The notes beneath the pieces are model-generated. The model made no database searches, was not told the origin of the DNA, and worked only from the letters and a program-made list of their open reading frames with translations. Made by a program: the position numbers and the translations under genes. Below, piece after piece: positions 31,542 through 43,610 of a stretch of DNA of 64,000 nucleotides (position 1 is the stretch's first letter; each line of letters opens with the position of its first letter). This DNA comes from Leptodontidium sp. MPI-SDFR-AT-0119 (lineage: Eukaryota > Ascomycota > Leotiomycetes > Helotiales > Leptodontidiaceae). Where the stretch lies: contig JAHLEZ010000006.1 in the NCBI GenBank assembly GCA_020726505.1, forward strand, positions 2,294,001-2,358,000, given 5' to 3'.

Positions 31542-31826
31542 TGTGGTGGGGAAGGCTCTGGTAGCTCCTTTGTCACCTGACCGGATAGGCTCTTTCCACA
31601 TAAAAGGGTTCATCACTTGAAAACAACTCAACAACCAAGAACTTTTCATAGATATTATCTAATACACTTTTTTTCTCCTCCCCTCCCTCGACTTGTCATG
31701 CTCTTTGGATATGTATTATCTTTAGATTTGATCAATCCGCGATTTCCTACACCTAGAGTCTCCCCCCGTACCTCACTACATGCTACCCTCTTGTTGTGTG
31801 GTTTATTGGGCTTTTTCCCTCCCACA
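31542..31826 (+). repeat. 5' long terminal repeat
   Basis: 285 bp, TG..CA ends, identical by eye to 43326-43610. It contains a T/C-rich stretch (CTTTTTTTCTCCTCCCC) in its middle. Confidence 0.95.
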
Positions 31827-31832
31827 TATTTT

Positions 31833-31850
31833 TGGTGACCGACGCAGGGA
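31833..31850 (+). other. Putative primer binding site
   Basis: TGGTGACCGACGCAGGGA begins 6 nt inside the 5' LTR. The TGG matches the CCA end of a tRNA, as expected for minus-strand priming. The tRNA was not identified. Confidence 0.5.
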
Positions 31851-32666
31851 GTGAGTTCAGTACGAGGAAATAGAACTAGGTAAGTTATGCGGAAAGGGCC
31901 CTTTATGCTAATCACAAGCGTTTAGGGAGAATCAAGAAACGACAACTGCTTGAACTGAGGGACCTATTTAGTTAGTAACTCCTCAGCCTTCGAAAGCAAA
32001 AACAGCAGATATGGAGGCACAAGTATACGACAGAGAGAGCAGAGAGACACGAGGGAAGCAAGTGAACTTTCACAATACGTGGGGACACCTGGAGTACTGG
32101 AAAATCTCTTCTCTCTCAGCTCGAGGCTCTGTGCCCGCCATTCCGAAGACTTGTGCTCTACTATTTCACAATACTTCCCACAGTGATACGAGGCCCCATA
32201 GCATCAGACCGCCAAAGCCTGATATTATGAGGTACCGAGATTACTGTGTGAGAAGTTGGCTGAAGTATTATGGGTCGTGCTCTTTAGTTCGTCAGCTGAA
32301 GGCCGAAGTCTTACCTAGAGATTCGGCGGAAGTGTGTTCTAGGCTGGTCTAGAACCAGGCCTCAGTTATCTTTTTAGCGTTGTTTAATTTCCATCTACCC
32401 CCTGTTTATTGATTTGAACCCTCTGTAATTTCGGCGTATGGGGCCTAGGGCGCAGGCTGAGACCTCGCTAGAAGAGCCTATCGTTTGGCCCTTCGCTTAG
32501 AGAGGCGAGGCCCTGAATTCTTGTTTCCAGGGGGACGTTTCTTTACTTTCTTTACACAACAACACAACACTTATATACACCAAATCTTTTGTTACTTTCA
32601 TTGCTTTCGATCAAACGACTACACATATTCTTTCAAAAACCTCAAATCACATTCAACTCACCGATA
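31851..32666 (+). other. Untranslated leader of the retrotransposon
   Basis: About 820 nt between the putative primer site and the gag ATG. It has several short frames but no supported gene, and probably holds packaging signals. Confidence 0.45.
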
Positions 32667-33611
32667 ATGTCCGGCTACGGTAGACCAAACAACGCCAATA
32701 ATCAGAAGGGGGCTCCCTTTACCGACACCCCGGGACCTGCCACTGGAAGCAACTTTGGGACGATTGCAGGCGTTGGGCCTAGCGCTTCCCATGATTCAGG
32801 GACCTCTGATGGGGGTTCTACCCCTCATGACAACAACACTTTCCAGAGCTTGCTAGACAGTAAGAAGGGGAAAGGGAAAGGCAAAGGGAAGGGGTCCAGT
32901 GATGCCGGACCAAGTAACTCAGCTCCCCCTGCCAATATCGCTGAACCTGCCGCTCCTAACTCGACCCCGGCCATCACTGCAAATGATCTCAAGAATATCA
33001 AGGTCCACGTCAGTCAGCCGATGCCAATCCCTGGATCCCCGAATACTCCCATTTTCAACGGCATCGACGTCAGCACCTACTTCCGGACCCTTGACAGATA
33101 CTTCGCAAGCTACATGGTTACCAACGACCGGGAGAAGAAGGAATGGGTAGTCGACTATGCAACCCCTTCTCAAGCGTGGAACATTCGGAAGCTCCCTAGC
33201 TTCAAAACCGGAACATACGCTAGCCTCAAGAGGGAAGTGAAGCAAGACTATCAGGCCGACGACAGTGAGTATCGTTTGTATACGAATGCTTACTTGGACC
33301 TACTAGAGCAGGATTTCAAAGATGCTCAAATTGACGGCCAACCTTCCCCAGATCAATGCCGGAAGTTCCTTAGGGCCTTCAGAGAGGTAGCCCTGAACTG
33401 CGTCGACCGAGGCAATCTCACTAAAAAGCAAGCGTCGACTCGATTCATGCTTGCACTCCCCCGAAGCCTTCGGAATAAGGCCATGCAAGCTGCCTCTAAG
33501 AATGGAGAGTCGTTAAAAGACCTCAAGACGGATGCGTTCGACGACATTTACAGCGCTGTTAAAGCCCAGCTCAATTCGGAACGAGACTTGTATACTATTG
33601 CAGAGGAGTAG
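32667..33611 (+). CDS. gag: Retrotransposon Gag (capsid-like)
   Basis: 314 aa from ATG 32667 (MSGYGRPNNANN). The N-terminus is Gly/Ser/Pro-rich with a KGKGKGKGK tract. The central and C-terminal region has capsid-type helices (IFNGIDVSTYFRTLDRYFASY, WVVDYATPSQAWNIRKL, YRLYTNAYLDLLEQDF, FMLALPRSLRNKAM). It ends at TAG 33609-33611, but the same frame continues open for another 1.5 kb. It has no zinc knuckle; a CxxC..H..C pattern occurs in the next frame. Confidence 0.85.
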   Translation: MSGYGRPNNANNQKGAPFTDTPGPATGSNFGTIAGVGPSASHDSGTSDGGSTPHDNNTFQSLLDSKKGKGKGKGKGSSDAGPSNSAPPANIAEPAAPNSTPAITANDLKNIKVHVSQPMPIPGSPNTPIFNGIDVSTYFRTLDRYFASYMVTNDREKKEWVVDYATPSQAWNIRKLPSFKTGTYASLKREVKQDYQADDSEYRLYTNAYLDLLEQDFKDAQIDGQPSPDQCRKFLRAFREVALNCVDRGNLTKKQASTRFMLALPRSLRNKAMQAASKNGESLKDLKTDAFDDIYSAVKAQLNSERDLYTIAEE

Positions 33612-33632
33612 GGCATTACAAACCACCGATGG

Positions 33633-35150
33633 ATGCAGGCAAGTCGGCCTAATATCTTCGCTGAGACGTCTGATCACCGGGAGGAGAGGGTTCAGCCTGC
33701 GTCTATGGCTACACAGGGCCAGTCGACCCGAGCACCACTATCACAGTACCCGAATTTCCTAGGCTATAGAGATAACGCCCCAGGTGAAGAGATTCGCAAG
33801 GCCTTTGAGAGACAGGACAGAGAAGCTATGGCCAACTTAGACCCTGTGTTTCTTCCAACTTTGCAAAAGATCGCCAAAGACCCCGAGAGTACTATAGACA
33901 GAGACCTAGAGAACGTTTGCAACGGTCTAGGGCACATGAAGATCCTTGCGGCAGTAGTTGAGAGAGCCACGAACGCCAGATACACGGCCGAGATAAACAT
34001 CTTACGATTCACTAAAGAGGCTCAAGAGGTAACTAGCGTTAGCTATGGGACTAGCCATCTTAACTCTATTGCCTATAACAAGAAGGCAAGAGATGATTAT
34101 GGGTGCCGGTGGTGTATGAATCGTTGGGAGCCCGGGATGAGACCTCAAGCACGACATGAGTTCATAAATCAATGTTTTGATTACAAGAAGTTCATAAGTC
34201 TTGGGGTAATTCATGAAGCAGAGGATAATGGCTACATTTGTATGGGACCTTGGGAAGAAGGGAAAAAGTCGTACCCCGTACAGTTTCCTACTGATAGGAG
34301 ACCTAGACGAGAGTATATCCTCTCTCGTGTGTTAAACAGCCAATACTCTCCTGATCCCGAACGCAGAGCACAGGCGGTTAAAGAGTTGCTAGTATCGCAG
34401 TTAGAAGCGGCGCTTGCAAGAGAGAAGGGAGCAACTTCTGCAATTAATTGCATCGAATTCATCGATGAGCCCATCGACGCCGGCGAGTCTGTTATCTTAC
34501 AGCAGTGGGACTGTTCCGAAGAGCAAATCGTCCAAGTCCAAGCTCTCTTGTCTAATACGAAGGACAGCTCTGATTCCGAGGCAATGGTTGCCCCCATCGA
34601 GACCAGAGCCCGAAAGAAGGCCCCAGCATTTGAGCCATACAAGGGATCCGACAAGTTGCAAGACAAAATCAAAGCTCAGGCCTCATATGGCAAACCGAAG
34701 GTTCCTCTGGATGTTAGAGACGCTGTGCAGTTCACTGAAGTCATGGATGTGGACAGTCCTGAAGAAGCAAGGAAGACCCCTCAGCAGATCCTAGCCAGGA
34801 ACAAGTCTAAGATCTCCGACATGGTCTCTAAACCTGTTGTGCCAACCGCATCTAGGGCATTAGCTCGGAATACTGCAACCAGCTCTTCGGCGAAGAGGCG
34901 CACCGCGAAGCCTGAACCAACTGTGGTCCCCTCTAGAATCCCTAGACCCATCACGCGATCAACATCTTCTCGGAACCCCCGTGTACAAGAAGCACTAGAC
35001 CGGAACGGCTACAAGCTCGACAGGGTCCTCGACAAGCTGCTGTCTTTACAAGAATTGCCTGGCAACCTTACGTTAGGGGAAATAATGGTGCTCATTGACC
35101 CTCCCAGAGCTTCCCGAACGCCCGGTGGTGCAATTGATCGACAGATGTAG
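33633..35150 (+). CDS. Second Gag-like frame with zinc-finger-like Cys/His cluster
   Basis: 505 aa from ATG 33633, in the same frame as gag and separated only by the TAG at 33609-33611 and 7 codons. It contains YGCRWCMNRWEPG followed by His and Cys (C-x2-C-x13-H-x5-C), a possible nucleocapsid-like zinc site, then helical and charged segments and a basic Ser/Arg-rich tail with RIPRPITRSTSSRNPR. The last part (KLDRVLDKLLSLQELPGNLT) is helical. It ends at TAG 35148-35150 and again the frame stays open beyond. It may be made as an extension of Gag or by re-initiation. Homology outside this element type is not recognised. Confidence 0.7.
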   Translation: MQASRPNIFAETSDHREERVQPASMATQGQSTRAPLSQYPNFLGYRDNAPGEEIRKAFERQDREAMANLDPVFLPTLQKIAKDPESTIDRDLENVCNGLGHMKILAAVVERATNARYTAEINILRFTKEAQEVTSVSYGTSHLNSIAYNKKARDDYGCRWCMNRWEPGMRPQARHEFINQCFDYKKFISLGVIHEAEDNGYICMGPWEEGKKSYPVQFPTDRRPRREYILSRVLNSQYSPDPERRAQAVKELLVSQLEAALAREKGATSAINCIEFIDEPIDAGESVILQQWDCSEEQIVQVQALLSNTKDSSDSEAMVAPIETRARKKAPAFEPYKGSDKLQDKIKAQASYGKPKVPLDVRDAVQFTEVMDVDSPEEARKTPQQILARNKSKISDMVSKPVVPTASRALARNTATSSSAKRRTAKPEPTVVPSRIPRPITRSTSSRNPRVQEALDRNGYKLDRVLDKLLSLQELPGNLTLGEIMVLIDPPRASRTPGGAIDRQM

Positions 35151-36248
35151 AGGGAGCATGTTGCTAACGTTGAAGCCATTACCTTTGAAGACGACTACAG
35201 CCTCGACAGGGAAGAGGTTATCATATCACAGAGACTATTACCTGATTCTTCATGTACTTTCCCGAAGTCTACGCTATACGTAGATCAATTAGGGGGGTAC
35301 CCCTCAATAAAGCAAAGCAACATCGAAACAAAGAAGGCCCGCGGTTGGCTCACGGGGAGAACAGAATGGAAGAGGAGGGTCCAAGCATACCCTAAGATCC
35401 CCAGGAATCTTCTTGCCTTGAAATTTCAGGCCTATCAGCGGTGGTTCCGGAACAGTGTCTCTATAACACAAGAGTCGATGATTGAGAAGTCAGTGGTATG
35501 GCTGCTACTTAGCGCTATCCCATTGTTTGGGCCGGTCCTAGTACTCCTCCTCAGCATACTATTAGTGTATAGAGACTTAGTGCTAGAACTTCTTCGCTTA
35601 GTGCCTTCTACGTCACCTAGAACGATGCGGCGAAGTGCTCGACTAGCAAGAAACACTAGCTTGTGTGTTAGGATAGAGGCTATGAGCGGCTCCACGGAAA
35701 TAGGCAACTCGTTCTACTCGCCAGCGCCGAAGGTAGTGGTTACGATGCCTGGCCGCTCTAAGGTCAGCGATGTCAGGGCTACACTCGACACGGGGGCTGA
35801 AGTCAGTTGTATGACTCTTGAAGCAGCTAACCTCTTGGAACTGCCCATAACGAGAAGTCAAACGATGGCCTTGAAGACGATTACTGGTGTGAAGTCTCGT
35901 TTCGTCGGATTTGCTGATAATGTCACCGTTGCCATAGGCAACTGCGCGATCAACAATCGGTTCTATATCATGGACAGTCCCGGAGTTAAGGTCATCCTTG
36001 GTTTTCCGTTCTTCCGCAAAGCCAAAGTCACTTTCCGCTACCCAAGAGATTACGACGGAGGCATTGTGCTCGCTTCTTTGTGGGATCAGCGCTCTAGTCT
36101 CATCACCACAGTCAGGACCAACGATGCTACTGAGGAAGCGAAGGATGCTGAGGCACTGCGTGGAGAGAATGGAGTAGGGCTAATTTACCCTGAAGATTCA
36201 GAATCCGAAATTGGTTATGAAGAGGAAGACTTCTCGGGAAACGATTAA
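35151..36248 (+). CDS. Retropepsin-like aspartic protease frame with two hydrophobic helices
   Basis: Open for 365 codons in the same frame as gag, directly after TAG 35148-35150; the first clear ATG is not at the frame start. Around 35480-35600 two strongly hydrophobic stretches (VVWLLLSAIPLFGPVLVLLL, then ILLVYRD) look like membrane helices. The protease follows: ATLDTGAEVSCMT with the catalytic DTGA, and later VKVILGFPFFRKAKVTF as the flap/C-terminal strand. The frame ends at TAA 36246-36248, 3 nt after a GGGAAAC heptamer. Proteases of this kind cut the element's own polyprotein. Confidence 0.8.
   Translation, partial: REHVANVEAITFEDDYSLDREEVIISQRLLPDSSCTFPKSTLYVDQLGGYPSIKQSNIETKKARGWLTGRTEWKRRVQAYPKIPRNLLALKFQAYQRWFRNSVSITQESMIEKSVVWLLLSAIPLFGPVLVLLLSILLVYRDLVLELLRLVPSTSPRTMRRSARLARNTSLCVRIEAMSGSTEIGNSFYSPAPKVVVTMPGRSKVSDVRATLDTGAEVSCMTLEAANLLELPITRSQTMALKTITGVKSRFVGFADNVTVAIGNCAINNRFYIMDSPGVKVILGFPFFRKAKVTFRYPRDYDGGIVLASLWDQRSSLITTVRTNDATEEAKDAEALRGENGVGLIYPEDSESEIGYEEEDFSGND
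36236..36242 (+). promoter_or_regulatory. -1 ribosomal frameshift slippery site G GGA AAC with pseudoknot
   Basis: The heptamer is in register with the protease frame (..tcG GGA AAC gat TAA). A 5-nt spacer (36243-36247) is followed by an 8-bp stem, 36248-36255 pairing with 36270-36277 (one G-U). Loop bases 36261-36265 (CGAGC) are complementary to 36288-36292 (GCTCG), forming an H-type pseudoknot. Slipping by -1 enters a frame open to 36580 and, past one TAG, to the end of pol. GGGAAAC is an established -1 frameshift heptamer in retroviruses. Function here is inferred. Confidence 0.7.
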
Positions 36249-36304
36249 CTGGCTGTTACTCGAGCGCTGCAGTCAGTACACTTGAATGCTCGGACATCCC
36301 GACA

Positions 36305-36580
36305 TTGACGGAACTGGAAGAAGGACTTTTTGAAGGAGGAGACAGTCAACCTTATCGTCCTCGCCTCTTGCTACGAGACCGGGAACCTGCGAGCCTCAAG
36401 GGGATGGCGTACATTGAGTACATGGAGAGAGAATTCTGTGTGCCAAAATCGGTGATCAGAGACTTTCCACCTGGAGCACTCCTTGACTCGTACCGAGAGG
36501 AACCCCTAGTCTCCGAGCCCTTGTTTAGGGGAGCATTCAACGACGATTCCTTGTCTCTGGCCAGCCCAACGTTCGAATAG
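36305..36580 (+). CDS. Short linker frame between protease and pol
   Basis: 91 codons as tracked from a TTG, but the frame is open from 36221, so it is best seen as the -1 frameshift product of the protease frame. The sequence is acidic with no recognised domain (RLLLRDREPASLKGM, FRGAFNDDSLSL). It ends at TAG 36578-36580, after which the same frame runs into pol. Confidence 0.5.
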   Translation: MTELEEGLFEGGDSQPYRPRLLLRDREPASLKGMAYIEYMEREFCVPKSVIRDFPPGALLDSYREEPLVSEPLFRGAFNDDSLSLASPTFE

Positions 36581-36655
36581 ACCACCGACTACGACGAGCT
36601 CCCGATCAAGTCACCGTTCCGAGAAACGCAGAATACGGTAGCGCGAGTAGGAGCT

Positions 36656-39600
36656 ATGTACAAGTCAAAGGCCAAGAAGGTCCTGCCCGTTGATTTGGCT
36701 GACCCGAAAGGCGACCCCCCTAGTGGGAGGGAGGACTGGTACGAGCGTGCACGAGAACGAGGAACTCCCCAAGATCATGTCGGAAAGTATCGAGAACACC
36801 TGTTACCACGCTTCGCTAGCATACCCCGAAACTCAAGACTTACCCCAGAAAGGCTGGCTAAATTAGACGTGAGTAGCCTGTTGTGGCCGGAAGAGAGAGC
36901 CTTATTCGACGAAATGATGGTCAATCGGGAAGGAGCTATAGCTTTTGACTGGCCTGAGTGTGGCAAATTTCATGAAGATGTCTCCCCTCCCGTCATCATC
37001 AAGACTATTGAACATACGGCTTGGCAAGCTCCCAACTTTCCTTTGCCGCGGGCACTTGTTCCGGAGGTTACTAAGATGGTACAAGAAAGACTCGACAAAG
37101 GAGTCCTGGAGTACTCCGAGGGGCCCTACCGCAACGCTTGGTTCCTAGTTCAAAAGAAGGAGTCGGGGAAATACAGATTGATTAACTCGGCTACTATGTT
37201 GAATGCTGTCACCCGCAGAGACGCTAACCTCCCGCCATCTGTCGATGAGTTTTCTGAAGAGTTTGCTGGTTGCCATGTTGCAAGTCTCGTTGACCTGTAT
37301 TCCGGGTACGATCAACAAGTGCTTCATCAGTCCAGTAGGGATATGACTGCTTTTTATGTTCCTCACATCGGACTAGTCCGAAATACGACACTTCCACAAG
37401 GCGCCACTAATTCTATTGCACAATTTGTCCGAACGATTACACGTATCTTGAAGAAGCTAGTCCCAGCAGTTGCGATGCCATTCTTGGACGACATCGGTGT
37501 CAAAGGCCCGTACACAGACTACAACCAAGCTGAAGCCTTACCAGGGATCAGGAAGTTTGTCCTAGAGCATATCAAGAACCTCGACATGACTCTCGAACGC
37601 TTGGAGCGTGCTGGAGCTACGATTGGGCCTAAGTCACAATTTTGTCTTGATGGCATGGACATTGTGGGGTACGCCTGTAACTCCGGAGGGAGAGAACCAT
37701 CTGCGAGACACCTCGTCAAAATCAAGAACTGGCGGGAACCAGCGAATCTCACTGAAGTCAAGGCATTCCTAGGACTTGTTGTTTACTTCCGAATTTGGAT
37801 CAAGAACTTTCGCCTGATCGCTGAACCCTTGTACGCACTCTCACGGAAAGGGGTTAAGTTTCACTGGGAACCTGATTTGCAAGGCAAGGCTATGGCTGAA
37901 CTGCAGGACGCTTTATGCTCATCCCCAGTCCTATGTCGAATAGACTATGGAAAGGGAGCTGGTGAAATTGTAGTTGGAGTTGACTCTAGCGGAACTGGCT
38001 GGGGCGGCTTCCTTGGCCAAAGGGAGCTGACTTCAAACAAAATACGCCCAGCAAGGTACGAGAGTGGGTTCTGGAGCAAGACCGAAGCCAAATATGATGC
38101 CACCAAGAGAGAGTGCAAGGGTATGCTTCACATCTTGAAGAAACTGAAGATTTGGCTTGTTGGAGTGCACTTCGTTATGGAGACAGATGCCAATACACTT
38201 GTTGCACAACTAAACGGAGCAACTCACGATCACCCTAACGCGATGTTGACCAGATGGCTCGCTTGGATACGACTCTTCGACTTTGAGGTTCGACACGTCC
38301 AAGGAACGACACATGTAGTGGCAGACCAGTTGTCCCGGAGACCTAGGCACCCCGAAGATTCCCCAGAAGAAAGCAATGCTGACGAAGACTGGATTCTCTC
38401 TGAGCTTGGAGCTTACGAGATTTGTCCTATTAGCACCATAGGCGAAGAGGAGACTAGTGGTTCGGAATCAGACGGCGCATCAACGGACCCGGAACTTCGG
38501 AGACGGAATGGAATCCTTCAAGACATGAAATCTGTGGTCCAGAGACTTCGCGATGAGGGGGAACTTACTTCTTCCAGCGGTTCTGAGTCCTCTTCTGACG
38601 AAGGAGGCCTACCTATCATGATGAGCAAGTACGGGGAACGGTACCAGGAGATAGCTCGGTACCTAACGACACTCAAGACTCCGAAGTCAATGGATCGGAA
38701 ACAGTTCCGAGTATTTAAGCGTGAAGCACTAAATTACGGCGTGCATAGTCGCAGGATCTGGAGGTTGCCGTCAAAAGGGGCTCCAGTTAAGCTCGTCATC
38801 GACACAGCAAGAGAGAAAGAGGCAATACTTAGGAGTTGCCATAACAACTCGGGCCACAAAGGACGGGAAAGTACGTACTACCGAATCTTCACTCGATACT
38901 TCTGGAAAGGCCTGTACACAGACTGTATGAATTATGTTCGGACATGCCAGGATTGCCAACTCCGATCATCTAAACGCCAGGAGGAACCCCTCTACCCAAC
39001 AGCATCGAATGGCCTAATGGAGAAATGGGCGCTTGATATTGTGTTTATGCCGGCAGAACGCGGAAAGAAGTACCTAGTGGTTGCTAGGGACGACATGAGC
39101 GGTTGGGTTGAGGCAAGAGCCCTCGCTAGCAGAGAGGCTAAAGGGGTAGCTGACTTCATTTGGCAAGACATCATTTGCCGGCACGGACTGTTTTGGAGGC
39201 TTATTGTTGATGGTGGAACTGAGAACATGGGAGAAGTTATGGATTTGCTCAATAGAATGGAAGTCAACCGGATCCAAATCTCAGCATACAACGCCAGAGC
39301 GAATGGGATGATTGAGAGAGGACATGGCCCGATCAAAAATGCGCTTTCCAAAATGGGCGGACGCTGGCTTGACAACCTTCCAGCAGTGTTGTTTGCAGAC
39401 CGTACCACAGTACATCGCCCTACGGGGTACACTCCTTTCTACATGGTCTACGGGAGAGAAGCTATCCTGCCTATCGAGACAACAAACCCGACCTGGAGAT
39501 CATTGTTTACCGAAGAGATCAGGGACCGCTCCAAGCTCCTAGAACTCCGCGCTCTCCAGTTTCAAATGCGACAGGAACACATCGACGAAGCCATACTCAT

Positions 39601-40120
39601 GAAGACCCGTCGCCGTCAGGAAGGTAGAGAAGCATTTGATCTGAAACATGACATCCGCAAACGGCCATTCGTCAAGGGAGACTTAGTCTTGCGTTGGGAC
39701 TCCATTAGAGAGAGGGATATGTCCACCAACCGTGCTCTCGATTTCAGATGGCTTGGACCTTACGAGATCTATAAAGCCTATACAGAGAAAGGGTACTACA
39801 AACTCAAAGAGCTAGGCCCAGATGGCCCCCGACTTCGCCGGACTTTTGCTGGGAACAAGCTTAAGCTCTTTCACAAGAGGCACGACTTCATCTACAACGA
39901 CAGCGACGATGATGGACAGCTCGATGAAGAATTAGACGACAACCTCACGCCTAACCGTGAACCTGACATCGACATGCACGACCTCAGCGACCCCGAGTTC
40001 CTAGAGAACCCTGAGATTCCGACGATACAGCGTGTTCGGGATGATGGGATAGTGATTAGAGTCCCTGAGCTATCTCAACAACAGCGCAGTGAGTATCGAG
40101 TGGTGTCTGACTCGGAATAA
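36656..40120 (+). CDS. pol: Pol: reverse transcriptase, RNase H and integrase
   Basis: 1154 aa from ATG 36656 (frame open from 36581). RT: residues ~130-330 with YRNAWFLVQKK, YRLINSATMLN, LVDLYSGYDQQ, LPQGATNSI and the active site FLDD at ~276 in place of the usual YVDD/YIDD. RNase H: VGVDSSGTGWGG (~443), ATKRECKGML, METDANTL and HVVADQLSRRP. Integrase: a zinc site from CHNNSGHKG (~729) and CQDC, then the DD35E core with ALDIVF (~D794), IVDGGTEN (~D852) and GMIERGH (~E887). A GPY-type segment (FRWLGPYEIYKA) and an acidic tail follow. No chromodomain is evident. All catalytic residues appear present, so the product may be active. Confidence 0.93.
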   Translation: MYKSKAKKVLPVDLADPKGDPPSGREDWYERARERGTPQDHVGKYREHLLPRFASIPRNSRLTPERLAKLDVSSLLWPEERALFDEMMVNREGAIAFDWPECGKFHEDVSPPVIIKTIEHTAWQAPNFPLPRALVPEVTKMVQERLDKGVLEYSEGPYRNAWFLVQKKESGKYRLINSATMLNAVTRRDANLPPSVDEFSEEFAGCHVASLVDLYSGYDQQVLHQSSRDMTAFYVPHIGLVRNTTLPQGATNSIAQFVRTITRILKKLVPAVAMPFLDDIGVKGPYTDYNQAEALPGIRKFVLEHIKNLDMTLERLERAGATIGPKSQFCLDGMDIVGYACNSGGREPSARHLVKIKNWREPANLTEVKAFLGLVVYFRIWIKNFRLIAEPLYALSRKGVKFHWEPDLQGKAMAELQDALCSSPVLCRIDYGKGAGEIVVGVDSSGTGWGGFLGQRELTSNKIRPARYESGFWSKTEAKYDATKRECKGMLHILKKLKIWLVGVHFVMETDANTLVAQLNGATHDHPNAMLTRWLAWIRLFDFEVRHVQGTTHVVADQLSRRPRHPEDSPEESNADEDWILSELGAYEICPISTIGEEETSGSESDGASTDPELRRRNGILQDMKSVVQRLRDEGELTSSSGSESSSDEGGLPIMMSKYGERYQEIARYLTTLKTPKSMDRKQFRVFKREALNYGVHSRRIWRLPSKGAPVKLVIDTAREKEAILRSCHNNSGHKGRESTYYRIFTRYFWKGLYTDCMNYVRTCQDCQLRSSKRQEEPLYPTASNGLMEKWALDIVFMPAERGKKYLVVARDDMSGWVEARALASREAKGVADFIWQDIICRHGLFWRLIVDGGTENMGEVMDLLNRMEVNRIQISAYNARANGMIERGHGPIKNALSKMGGRWLDNLPAVLFADRTTVHRPTGYTPFYMVYGREAILPIETTNPTWRSLFTEEIRDRSKLLELRALQFQMRQEHIDEAILMKTRRRQEGREAFDLKHDIRKRPFVKGDLVLRWDSIRERDMSTNRALDFRWLGPYEIYKAYTEKGYYKLKELGPDGPRLRRTFAGNKLKLFHKRHDFIYNDSDDDGQLDEELDDNLTPNREPDIDMHDLSDPEFLENPEIPTIQRVRDDGIVIRVPELSQQQRSEYRVVSDSE

Positions 40121-43100
40121 ACATGCTTTGGTGTTAGGGAATTAGTGCGAGGACGCACCTCCGATATTTGAAGAGGGGGACGACATACTGTCGCACATCA
40201 AAATGATCACTAAGACGACTTTATATCACCAAAAACCACGATTCAGGACACCTCAGCACCACAACAAACACGAAGAAGAGCCTATGCAGCCCTAAACAAG
40301 TCAGAGAGAACATTGGCCCCGCGCTACAAGAACACCTATCTCTCAGAGCAAAGCTCAACAAGAAACCAGCGCCCTCATAAACTACCTGCCGCATGCGAAC
40401 ATACAACAGGTTTAGAACGAGACTGCCATCATCAAGCCGGCGATATTCTAGGCGGCAAAAAGTAACTTCGTTTGAATGGGCCAGTTGTCGGGCTCGATCC
40501 GCAGGACTAGATTCCAAAACGGCAGGTTGAACTTGTGGCCTAGGCCAGAAATTCGAGTCCAACGTGCTAGACACCCCGAAGAATACAGACGCAACATACC
40601 CAGGCGCCAACTCTCGGCAATTGATAAAAAGAAAGGAAACAACGAAGCAAGTCCATTGTTCCTAGGGACAAAGTCAACACCCACAGAGCCATTAACCCAA
40701 CCGTAGCGCACAGCGATCTATGAAGGACGACACCAAGAGCACCATTGACAAACTAGCCTTGAACTAGTAAGCAGATCACACGATCTATGTAAGGTAGGCA
40801 GAAGTCTAGGAAATCTCCCAGCGAAGAGCCAACAACACGCTCGGAATCAGAGCCGTGCTCTCTGAAACCTTAAGTCAACAACCACAATATAGCCAACGCC
40901 AACCCCACCCCACGTGCTAGAGATCTGAGCATGCCATCGGCCGACGACCCCTAGCTGGTGAACCTTTCAGGGATCGAGTATTAGTCGACTACCCCCAATT
41001 AGCTCTGTCCAAAGTCTCTCGCCTGCTAGGTCAGGGCCCCTTCTGCATATACGTCGATACCTCCCAGTCCCTTCCCGTCGGAAAGTCTGAAAGAATAAAG
41101 ACTTCTCTTGCCGTTCACTAGTGCTAGTAGACAAGAGGTAGCATACTTCGCACTCAGAGTGCTAGCAGGAGACTGCAAGTTATGGACAACTTTCAAATAT
41201 GGTACAATGGCTCTGCGACCATGACAGACCTGCAAGCAGGAGTGCCGCCATTCCAGGCTCGCATCAACATCACTGAAGCAATGAAGACTCCATACCCTCG
41301 ACCTCCAGCCAGGTTCAGCAATGAGTACTAGCAACCAATCAAGGCTAAGGGTGCGACCCTAGGTGTTCTCATGGATGTTTCGTCACCGCCTACTGCATCA
41401 TTCCGAGAGGTGTCGTTAGGTAGAACGGACAGGGACAAAGCCAACAACCCACAGAGCAACCGGTCAGGAGTCAAGTCTAGCTTCGACCTCAAGATCAACA
41501 AGTTCTTCAACCCCCATTAAAGAACCGAAGTAATCAAGAGACCTCAACCATGACCGAACCACCATTCCGAGAAGATCTCTAGCCAACGGGACCCCACAGC
41601 ATGCCATCCCATGCTTAGCTACTGCCAGCCCAACAGTGCTTGAGTTGATTAGACTCTTTTGTTTATCCCCAGAAAGCTCAGCTGTTTCAAAGACCCTCTG
41701 TTAGCTTCAACAACAGGAGGTGACTTACCTGTCAAGGGGAGAAGGGGCCATTTCCACCACACCGAGAACCAAGAACCTATTGTAGCCTCCCAACCCTGCT
41801 CGACGCATTACGACCATTAGTTTGCCCACTCCTCCCGGCTTCCTGCCATAAACCTTCGAAATTGGCGGATCCAGCCTCCACCCCATCCAACCAACCAATT
41901 GATGAGAGACTGGCGGAATGATGCCACCTATCTTCAGCAGTGTGACTTGCGCAGGTGCAACAAGAGCGTGTCTGTGGAGGGACCCGAAAGCTACTCAGTG
42001 ACCCATTACCAAGGGAAGATCAGTACGGCGCGACACGCACGTTCTTAGCCCAAGGGGTGGAGTTTGATGCGGGTAGTCGCACGAGGTGGCCTTGATTCCC
42101 ATTGGTTTACGAACCTGAAGAAGACAGATGGCATCGTTTCCTTGACCTGTAGAGAGAATGTAAGCACCGGCGCTGCGAAGAGGTTGGACAGTTTGATACT
42201 CAGCTAGATGACGTCAAGGTGAAGTTTTGGAGTTCACTTTGGTTACTTCTCAAAACACGAGTTGAGGATTGAAGACCGTGGCGGTACCTCAAATCGCCGC
42301 AGGAAAGGTGTTGGCATAATCTGTGAATGGCCAGTCAAGTACAAGAGGAAGAGATAGGAGCATAACTCACGAAGTTGAGGCGCGTTGAGACCTCCATAGT
42401 GTTGACCTTTGGTGTTGAAGCTGAGAGCGTTTGGGCTGAGATGAAGCGAACCGATTCTGATGGCACCTCCGAGGTGGCTGACAACGAAGGACTCTTCTTG
42501 AAGGTCTACGACGAGTTAGCAGAGCTCAGAATGGTGTTGTGGAAGGTCAACTTACAGCGTTGAGGCGACTTGGTTTCATGCTGAAGTTGTTGTTTAGAGA
42601 TCGAGGCACGGAGAGCTGAGGAGAGACTGCGCACAGGTCAACGCAGGTGTTGTGTTGAAGTTGTTGCTCGACAGGAAGAAAAGCAAGCAAGAAAGGCTCT
42701 CGACTACGTCACCTCTGCGACCAGGCAACAGCGAAGTTGAAGGTGTTGAGCTCTAATGGCGCGCTAGAGTTGATAGTGAAGGCCAAGGTTGTTGCCCTGA
42801 AAGGTACCGAATGGCGTGAAGTTAGCGGCAGAGAGACCTCTGAGGATACTGGAGTCATGGTAGCTGAAGTCTTCTTTGAATAGAGGGAGATCTTGCCTTG
42901 GTAGTGTGGGGAAGTGTGATGGTGAAGTCGATCTTGGCATGAGTTTGGCGGGGAAGTTTGTTTTCTTTGGAAAATTGAAGTGAGAAAAGGTGCAGGAGGT
43001 GTTGTTTGATTGGTAGGAGAAGGAGTGAAGAAGTTGAAGCATGTTGAGGTGCTCCATGGAAGGAATGGTGTTGAGGAGAGGTAGTTGTATTTGGAGAGTT

Positions 43101-43307
43101 GAAGTTGGAGAGTTGGTGGGGGAGAGTCAACCTTATGAAGGTAGGCTGGCGGCGCTAAGCGAGGCGATTGTTTGCTTCCAAAGGTGACAGGTCAACTGTC
43201 ACGGGACTTCTTCTTCACCAGGCTTCCTGCTGACAACGTTGATTTATGGAGCTTTTGATTGGTGGAGTGTTTCTCTTGTATTGAGTCGCTCGAGGGCGAG
43301 CATGATT
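40121..43307 (+). other. Non-coding 3' region of the retrotransposon
   Basis: About 3.2 kb after pol with no long frame on either strand (longest ~130 codons, antisense). The first part is rich in A and C on the plus strand; from about 42.0 kb the plus strand is rich in G and T with repeated GTTGAAG-like words. A copy of the polypurine tract stands at its left edge. Origin unknown. Confidence 0.6.
40167..40183 (+). other. Internal copy of the polypurine tract
   Basis: TTTGAAGAGGGGGACGA is identical over 17 nt to the tract at 43308-43324 and lies just after pol, followed by CATAC then TGTCGCAC. It may mark an earlier 3' LTR junction or serve as a second plus-strand primer. Confidence 0.6.
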
Positions 43308-43324
43308 TTTGAAGAGGGGGACGA
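43308..43324 (+). other. 3' polypurine tract
   Basis: TTTGAAGAGGGGGACGA ends one nt before the 3' LTR, the expected place for the plus-strand primer. Confidence 0.8.
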
Positions 43325-43325
43325 A

Positions 43326-43610
43326 TGTGGTGGGGAAGGCTCTGGTAGCTCCTTTGTCACCTGACCGGATAGGCTCTTTCCACATAAAAGGGTTCATCAC
43401 TTGAAAACAACTCAACAACCAAGAACTTTTCATAGATATTATCTAATACACTTTTTTTCTCCTCCCCTCCCTCGACTTGTCATGCTCTTTGGATATGTAT
43501 TATCTTTAGATTTGATCAATCCGCGATTTCCTACACCTAGAGTCTCCCCCCGTACCTCACTACATGCTACCCTCTTGTTGTGTGGTTTATTGGGCTTTTT
43601 CCCTCCCACA
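43326..43610 (+). repeat. 3' long terminal repeat
   Basis: 285 bp, reads identically to 31542-31826. It is followed by GTAT, also present before the 5' LTR. Confidence 0.95.

Follow-up and report, generated by a model that had tools for sequence, protein, structure and literature searches.

In the usual plan of LTR elements the protease is encoded in pol (PMC3248453), and in the fungal Gypsy elements of the literature examined it is scarce relative to Gag because, as a part of pol, it is made only after recoding. The pol frame lies at -1 in 28 of 51 animal LTR elements, and fungi are less skewed between +1 and -1 (PMC5009743). An earlier note on the DNA analysed here, made from its letters alone, had set a -1 signal against Ty3/Gypsy elements that usually rely on other recoding strategies or on single frames; this contrast was overstated, since -1 layouts are common among LTR elements, and what stands of it is the weaker skew in fungi and the different manner of shifting in yeast Ty3.

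Several described systems resemble the locus in part. VdLTRE2, VdLTRE3, VdLTRE4 and LTR-Gypsy-RtPc1 are also fungal Ty3/Gypsy elements with pol at -1, but they carry protease and chromodomain in pol (PMC3441728, PMC4427930), whereas our element has its protease in the Gag frame and a scan of the pol protein of its family B relatives (P0002) found no chromodomain at E <= 0.01, so that an assignment to the chromoviruses does not follow. PEG10, a mammalian gene of Ty3/Gypsy origin (PMC5009743), shares with it the heptamer GGGAAAC, a 5-nt spacer and a downstream pseudoknot (PMC2800197), but the PEG10 protease comes after the shift, in reading frame 2 (PMC7212762), and that of our element before it. 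The betaretrovirus MMTV likewise shifts at the end of the protease, but its gag and pro occupy different frames (PMC5009743), whereas here Gag and protease share one. The same plan as ours is found in Rous sarcoma virus, an alpharetrovirus, in which Gag-Pro is in frame 0, Pro-Pol is at -1 and the protease is made with Gag (PMC1224870). As for the heptamer, G_GGA_AAC is among those most prone to shifting on mammalian ribosomes (PMC5009743).

Here we analyse a window of 64,000 nucleotides from the fungus Leptodontidium sp. MPI-SDFR-AT-0119 (contig JAHLEZ010000006.1), and we are confident that a site in it is a signal for -1 programmed ribosomal frameshifting that belongs to a fungal Ty3/Gypsy family; a predicted pseudoknot would drive the shift, and the product would be Gag-Pro-Pol. 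At the level of the nucleotide sequence we document the heptamer, its spacing, the potential for pairing, a switch of the selected frame and conservation between families. Given that the mechanism is known, as are the heptamer and fungal pol frames at -1, the mechanism itself is ordinary, and the unusual part is its position behind the protease. In the literature searched, which mostly excludes subscription journals, we found no account of fungal Gypsy elements whose Gag frame contains the protease. The earlier note, which had proposed the signal, was silent on this feature and on the broken state of the copy in the window.

Results

The host is a 12,069-bp Ty3/Gypsy LTR retrotransposon (31542-43610), whose parts are collected in Table 1. 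Pfam domains follow in the order RVT_1, RT_RNaseH, Integrase_H2C2 and rve, the last with a score of 28.3, below its cut-off of 32.6. The protease is in the Gag frame and not at the start of pol, which is its usual place in Ty3/Gypsy elements, a common trait though not a defining one. Between pol and the 3' LTR about 3.2 kb (40121-43325) show a strong base skew and hold no forward ORF of 100 aa, and ORFs near the element encode HET and Fungal_trans_2 domains (Pfam), which suggest a filamentous ascomycete.

Table 1. Features of the element and of its frameshift region (window coordinates).
Feature	Position	Strand	Basis or remark
5' LTR, 285 bp, TG...CA	31542..31826	+	285/285 bases identical to 43326-43610; 4-bp target duplication GTAT
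Candidate primer binding site (TGG...)	31833..31845	+	by position, 6 nt past 5' LTR
ORF1, Gag-protease frame	32667..36248	+	TAG at 33609-33611 and 35148-35150 in this copy; open in family B
Hydrophobic transmembrane-like segment ahead of protease	35511..35567	+	Kyte-Doolittle mean 2.51, 19 residues
Aspartic protease domain (PF13975/PF13650), Gag frame	35769..36017	+	Pfam matches with E of 1e-7 and 1.3e-7, each passing its cut-off
Slippery heptamer G GGA AAC	36236..36242	+	sequence; canonical X XXY YYZ in 0 frame; canonical in 18/29 aligned rows
5-nt spacer, holding first two bases of ORF1 stop	36243..36247	+	equal length in families B and C
Stem 1, 5' arm	36248..36256	+	predicted pairing with 36269-36277; 9 pairs, -16.1 kcal/mol
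Stem 1, 3' arm	36269..36277	+	predicted pairing with 36248-36256
Stem 2, 5' arm	36260..36266	+	predicted pairing with 36287-36293; 7 pairs, -12.2 kcal/mol
Stem 2, 3' arm	36287..36293	+	predicted pairing with 36260-36266
ORF2, -1 frame: RT, RNase H, integrase	36236..40120	+	Pfam; TAG at 36578-36580 in this copy
Candidate polypurine tract	43311..43325	+	purine-rich run adjoining 3' LTR
3' LTR, 285 bp	43326..43610	+	identity to 5' LTR

Copies of the element and related families

A DNA search of the element's own genome, which comprises 77 Mb on 69 contigs, returned 50 matches (57 candidates, 40 scored), and most of these relatives of the window copy are decayed. The junction could be aligned in 28 rows of the window's own family (family A) and one row of a second family (family B), L029 being left out as its match begins downstream of the signal. 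GGGAAA followed by A, C or T is kept in 18 of the 29 rows, and the other 11 have G-to-A changes in the heptamer, as is expected of dead copies. A stop at the end of ORF1 is present in 28 rows, and the frame relation is kept in 28 as well, the exception (L028) being cut downstream. Searching the genome for the junction pattern with at most two mismatches returned 52 matches on one strand and 51 on the other, versus 17 and 23 for the reversed control, and many of the weaker matches are chance ones, as the counts of that control indicate. Among the pattern matches listed, the repeated sequence TCGRGAATCGAGTAACTR occurs at least six times, on contigs C13, C14 and C32.

Family B includes copies with both ORFs intact. 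It is 75% identical to the window DNA on the protease side and 68% over the matched part downstream, with 88-89% identity of the RT protein. All eight fetched copies share an identical 60-nt signal with the junction GGGAAAA-GAG-TAA, at which a Gag-protease ORF1 meets an RT-RNaseH-integrase ORF2 at -1; this is the alpharetrovirus-type layout, with Gag-Pro in one frame and Pol at -1. Seven of the eight copies have an uninterrupted -1 frame of 1,288 codons (300 in L033). In five the 0 frame upstream, measured from stop to stop, spans no fewer than 1,196 codons; in L036 it is open for 749 codons up to the fetched end, and in L032 and L033 it is interrupted. ORF1 of L034 has 1,170 codons from its first ATG. 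Over 5,103 compared bases L034, L035, L037 and L038 do not differ from one another, while L031 differs at 82 and L032 at 92. Eight further B-like copies are decayed (L039, L040, L066-L071); GGGAAAA is found in seven of them and the TAA in all.

A more distant family C (L057, L058, L059, L063 and L064, all decayed; L065 was left out for want of an alignment with it) has 38-49% RT protein identity in the four members matched. Translation places its protease and pol in the -1 relation in 5/5 members, and the shift site is followed by one codon and then TAA or TGA. The sites themselves, GGAAAAC in L058 and L059, AGAAAAC in L057 and L063 and GAAAAAC in L064, depart from strict X XXY YYZ; G_GA in the place of X_XX has been recorded in insect-specific flaviviruses, some umbraviruses and dianthoviruses, and mesoniviruses (PMC5009743). 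As computed for L058 and L063, the family C stem has 10 pairs, and its sequence is unrelated; the stems of L057, L059 and L064 were judged by eye, that of L064 with one mismatch.

The shift site and the predicted pseudoknot

The protease frame reads TCG GGA AAC GAT TAA, with the ORF1 stop at 36246-36248, one codon past the heptamer, exactly as the earlier note had it. Taken alone, a heptamer near the end of an ORF is evidence of little weight, because of the 119 stop-to-stop ORFs with at least 100 codons that the window contains four, including this one, have such a motif within four codons of their stop. The note's 5-nt spacer, its 8-bp stem (with one G-U pair) and the 5-bp pairing of the loop are all present, and the stems can be extended to the lengths in Table 1; they form a predicted H-type pseudoknot with loops of 3, 2 and 9 nt, which begins 5 nt after the heptamer, within the range of about 5-9 nt expected of -1 stimulators. 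The last base of the ORF1 stop is also the first base of stem 1. Scored by the stacking of both stems, the site reaches -28.3 kcal/mol, and an equal or better score with identical geometry was obtained at 4 of 7,988 sampled window positions and in none of 1,000 dinucleotide shuffles. It ranks first among the 228 canonical heptamers on both strands, ahead of a runner-up at -26.0. An Rfam search of the signal returned no relevant match, its one sub-threshold match lying outside the signal.

Stem 1 begins 5 nt past the shift site in families A, B and C. In family B it consists of 6 pairs followed by a U-U mismatch, and stem 2 of 8 pairs. Background positions as good as the family's own numbered 34 of 7,988 for B, and 31 and 112 for L058 and L063 of family C; shuffles as good numbered 0, 1 and 33 of 1,000 respectively, so that the structure of L063 is not clearly above shuffled sequence. 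Between the cleanest A and B rows five stem pairs are changed, of which four are still paired through one-sided changes and one (36254/36271) is broken in B, and no compensatory double change was found in the stems of these rows. Over 37 A and B sequences 88.0% of cells are paired, versus 22.0-37.8% with slid partners. We do not use covariation as proof of the pseudoknot, because RIP, by C-to-T changes on either strand, can turn G-C into A-U pairs through double changes in the decayed copies.

It is possible, though unlikely, that shifting would be stimulated by a plain stem 1 hairpin to which stem 2 is incidental, an arrangement that is compatible with the core of the frameshift model. Stem 1 is the strongest element in A and C, stem 2 of family C comprises 5 weak pairs, and folding of family B as a single structure yields a different fold. 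However, stem 2 is perfect in both A (7 pairs) and B (8 pairs), stem 1 of B is the weaker one, and the combined pseudoknot score is rare. The predicted pseudoknot is the probable stimulator.

In the frameshift model the majority of ribosomes would translate Gag and protease in one frame and terminate at the TAA one codon past the shift site, while the pseudoknot would cause some of them to move back by one base, from GGA AAC to GGG AAA. The slipped ribosomes would continue into RT, RNase H and integrase to give the Gag-Pro-Pol fusion. Since Gag and protease share a frame, the protease would be made at Gag level and only RT, RNase H and integrase would be rationed, as they alone are in alpharetroviruses (Gag-Pro in 0, Pro-Pol at -1).

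The change of coding frame and its other explanations

That protein-coding selection passes from the 0 to the -1 frame across the site is apparent from the differences between families A and B. Counted by position modulo 3 (2/0/1), they amount to 91/17/14 at 35700-36235, an excess at the third position of the 0 frame, and to 30/33/54 at 36249-36560 and 34/19/140 at 36560-37300, both with the excess at the third position of the -1 frame. The 58 nt at 36243-36300 hold too few differences (6/4/5) for a frame bias, and 36300-36399 aligns poorly and with gaps. Identity is 23/25 at 36225-36249 versus 9/25 at 36300-36324; this peak is not unique to the junction, because 23/25 is also reached inside the protease (36000-36024).

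Could pol be translated separately, by re-initiation or from an internal start past the ORF1 stop? ORF2 does have ATG codons downstream (at 36404 in A). But the first ATG of the -1 frame lies 156 nt past the stop in A and 396 nt past it in B, in differing places and with ATGs of other frames in between, and in family B it comes after pol residues that match family A. The -1 frame is, moreover, open from the heptamer onward, and we consider a separate start very unlikely.

An intron that joined ORF1 to pol, making frameshifting unneeded, appears slightly less probable still. A donor-like GTAACT overlies the GAG TAA CTG codons of family B, and two gene models of Penicillium atrosanguineum (P0114 and P0115) place protease and RT in one predicted protein. 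Yet the donor-like site is missing in A and C, and a simple consensus scan (donor, branch site, acceptor 40-260 nt from the donor, right frame) found no intron in either A or B.

Least credible of all is a fortuitous indel within a single dying copy, with a coincidental heptamer and pairing: the three premature stops of the window copy and the decay of most of its genome relatives would suit it, but the frame relation recurs in 28/29 rows and at 8/8 family B junctions and the third-position bias changes frame across the junction. Intact two-ORF copies with an identical junction rule out an indel or pseudogene origin.

The -1 programmed frameshift thus stays our preferred reading. The claim that a -1 signal links the protease frame to pol held for the sequence relation, which is kept across copies and families. 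Its companion, a -1 frame running toward pol, held in part: the frame is open from 36221 (the preceding stop being 36218-36220), and in this copy the TAG in ORF2 interrupts it before RT.

Layout in protein relatives and in other lineages

Ten ORF1 proteins were compared, P0001, which is family B itself, and P0003-P0011, among which P0011 is almost the same as P0001. The nine others contain a protease by construction, because they were found with protease-region queries. The informative observation is that all ten end soon after the protease and that the precomputed lists give no RT domain for any of them. They terminate in FSGKE (2), FSGNE (2), SENA (3), SENW, SENE and SEN; if N or K represents the A-site codon, one codon would precede the stop in nine of the ten and none in P0008, as judged from protein ends, with DNA for P0001 only.

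Pol relatives gave 409 database matches, and the matches listed (at least 120) include Podosphaera, Penicillium and Paecilomyces. Among the 120 matches listed of these 409, P0115 alone has a precomputed protease domain, and a fresh domain scan of 40 pol ORFs (family B P0002 and the best 39 of the 409 relatives) found a protease in none. The fused Penicillium gene model P0114, which lies outside these 40, proved on scanning to have a protease that the precomputed list had missed. The protein searches admitted lengths of 0.55-1.75 times the query, with upper limits near 2,270 aa for pol and 2,119 aa for ORF1, and because of these limits a full-size single-ORF Gag-Pro-Pol would escape them. A scan of IMG/VR with family B pol gave no match.

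Two other Ty3/Gypsy-like lineages of the genome, L060 and L062, with about 30% RT identity, carry recoding-like junctions at the end of Gag. L060 reads ACG GGA AAA GCT TAG, with the protease (RVP_2, Pfam) in the -1 frame after the shift, in contrast to the window element, whose protease precedes it. L062 reads TCA AAA AAC TAC TAG, the next frame being -1, and has, by eye, a protease-like stretch after the shift, in which Pfam found no domain. As both share the spacing, a stop one codon past the A-site codon is not special to the window clade.

A wider reading, to which we give an even chance, is that there is a fungal Ty3/Gypsy clade with recoding behind the protease, at the end of Gag-Pro and not of Gag, which reached the alpharetrovirus plan independently and in which G GGA AAN was replaced by G GAA AAC as the shift site, with the spacer, the position of the stem and the stop spacing retained. 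Alpharetroviruses are retroviruses of vertebrates, whereas the Ty3/Gypsy element of the window resides in a fungus (env was sought in the ORF lists alone), and the shared layout is likely convergent. If the clade exists as described, the ORF1 stop would itself belong to the signal, its last base being the first of stem 1. A protease at Gag level would change how particle maturation must be controlled. The numerous pol relatives are known in part as to their layout, and the signal is short; among the three families shift site and stem vary naturally while their spacing is fixed.

A hydrophobic segment before the protease is found in families A and B and also in P0003 and P0004 (means 2.04-2.96). 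It starts at 973 in P0001, 923 in P0003, 752 in P0004 and 248 in P0011; in P0005 and P0007-P0010 the maximum hydrophobicity anywhere is at most 1.32, and P0006 has its peak at the N-terminus. On the basis of this segment Gag-Pro may be membrane-anchored.

Damage in the window copy

Three premature stops, the TAGs at 33609 and 35148 in ORF1 and at 36578 in ORF2, interrupt both frames of the window copy, which therefore cannot make the full fusion unless they are read through, and probably does not make it. The signal accordingly matters at the level of the family. RIP leaves C-to-T changes at CpA, and all three stops fit this signature and look RIP-made; the codon formerly at 33609 and 35148 would have been CAG. 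Genuine TAG read-through, considered since a TAG splits Gag from protease here, was rejected: at both ORF1 places family B encodes Gln (CAA), and at 36578 seven other family A copies and family B have TGG; across the 29 rows this codon is TGG in 8, TAG in 14, TAA in 6 and not comparable in 1. The two LTRs are identical over 285 bases despite RIP-type stops in both ORFs, a combination that would be explained either by light RIP after a recent insertion or by the mobilisation of a damaged copy by helper proteins.
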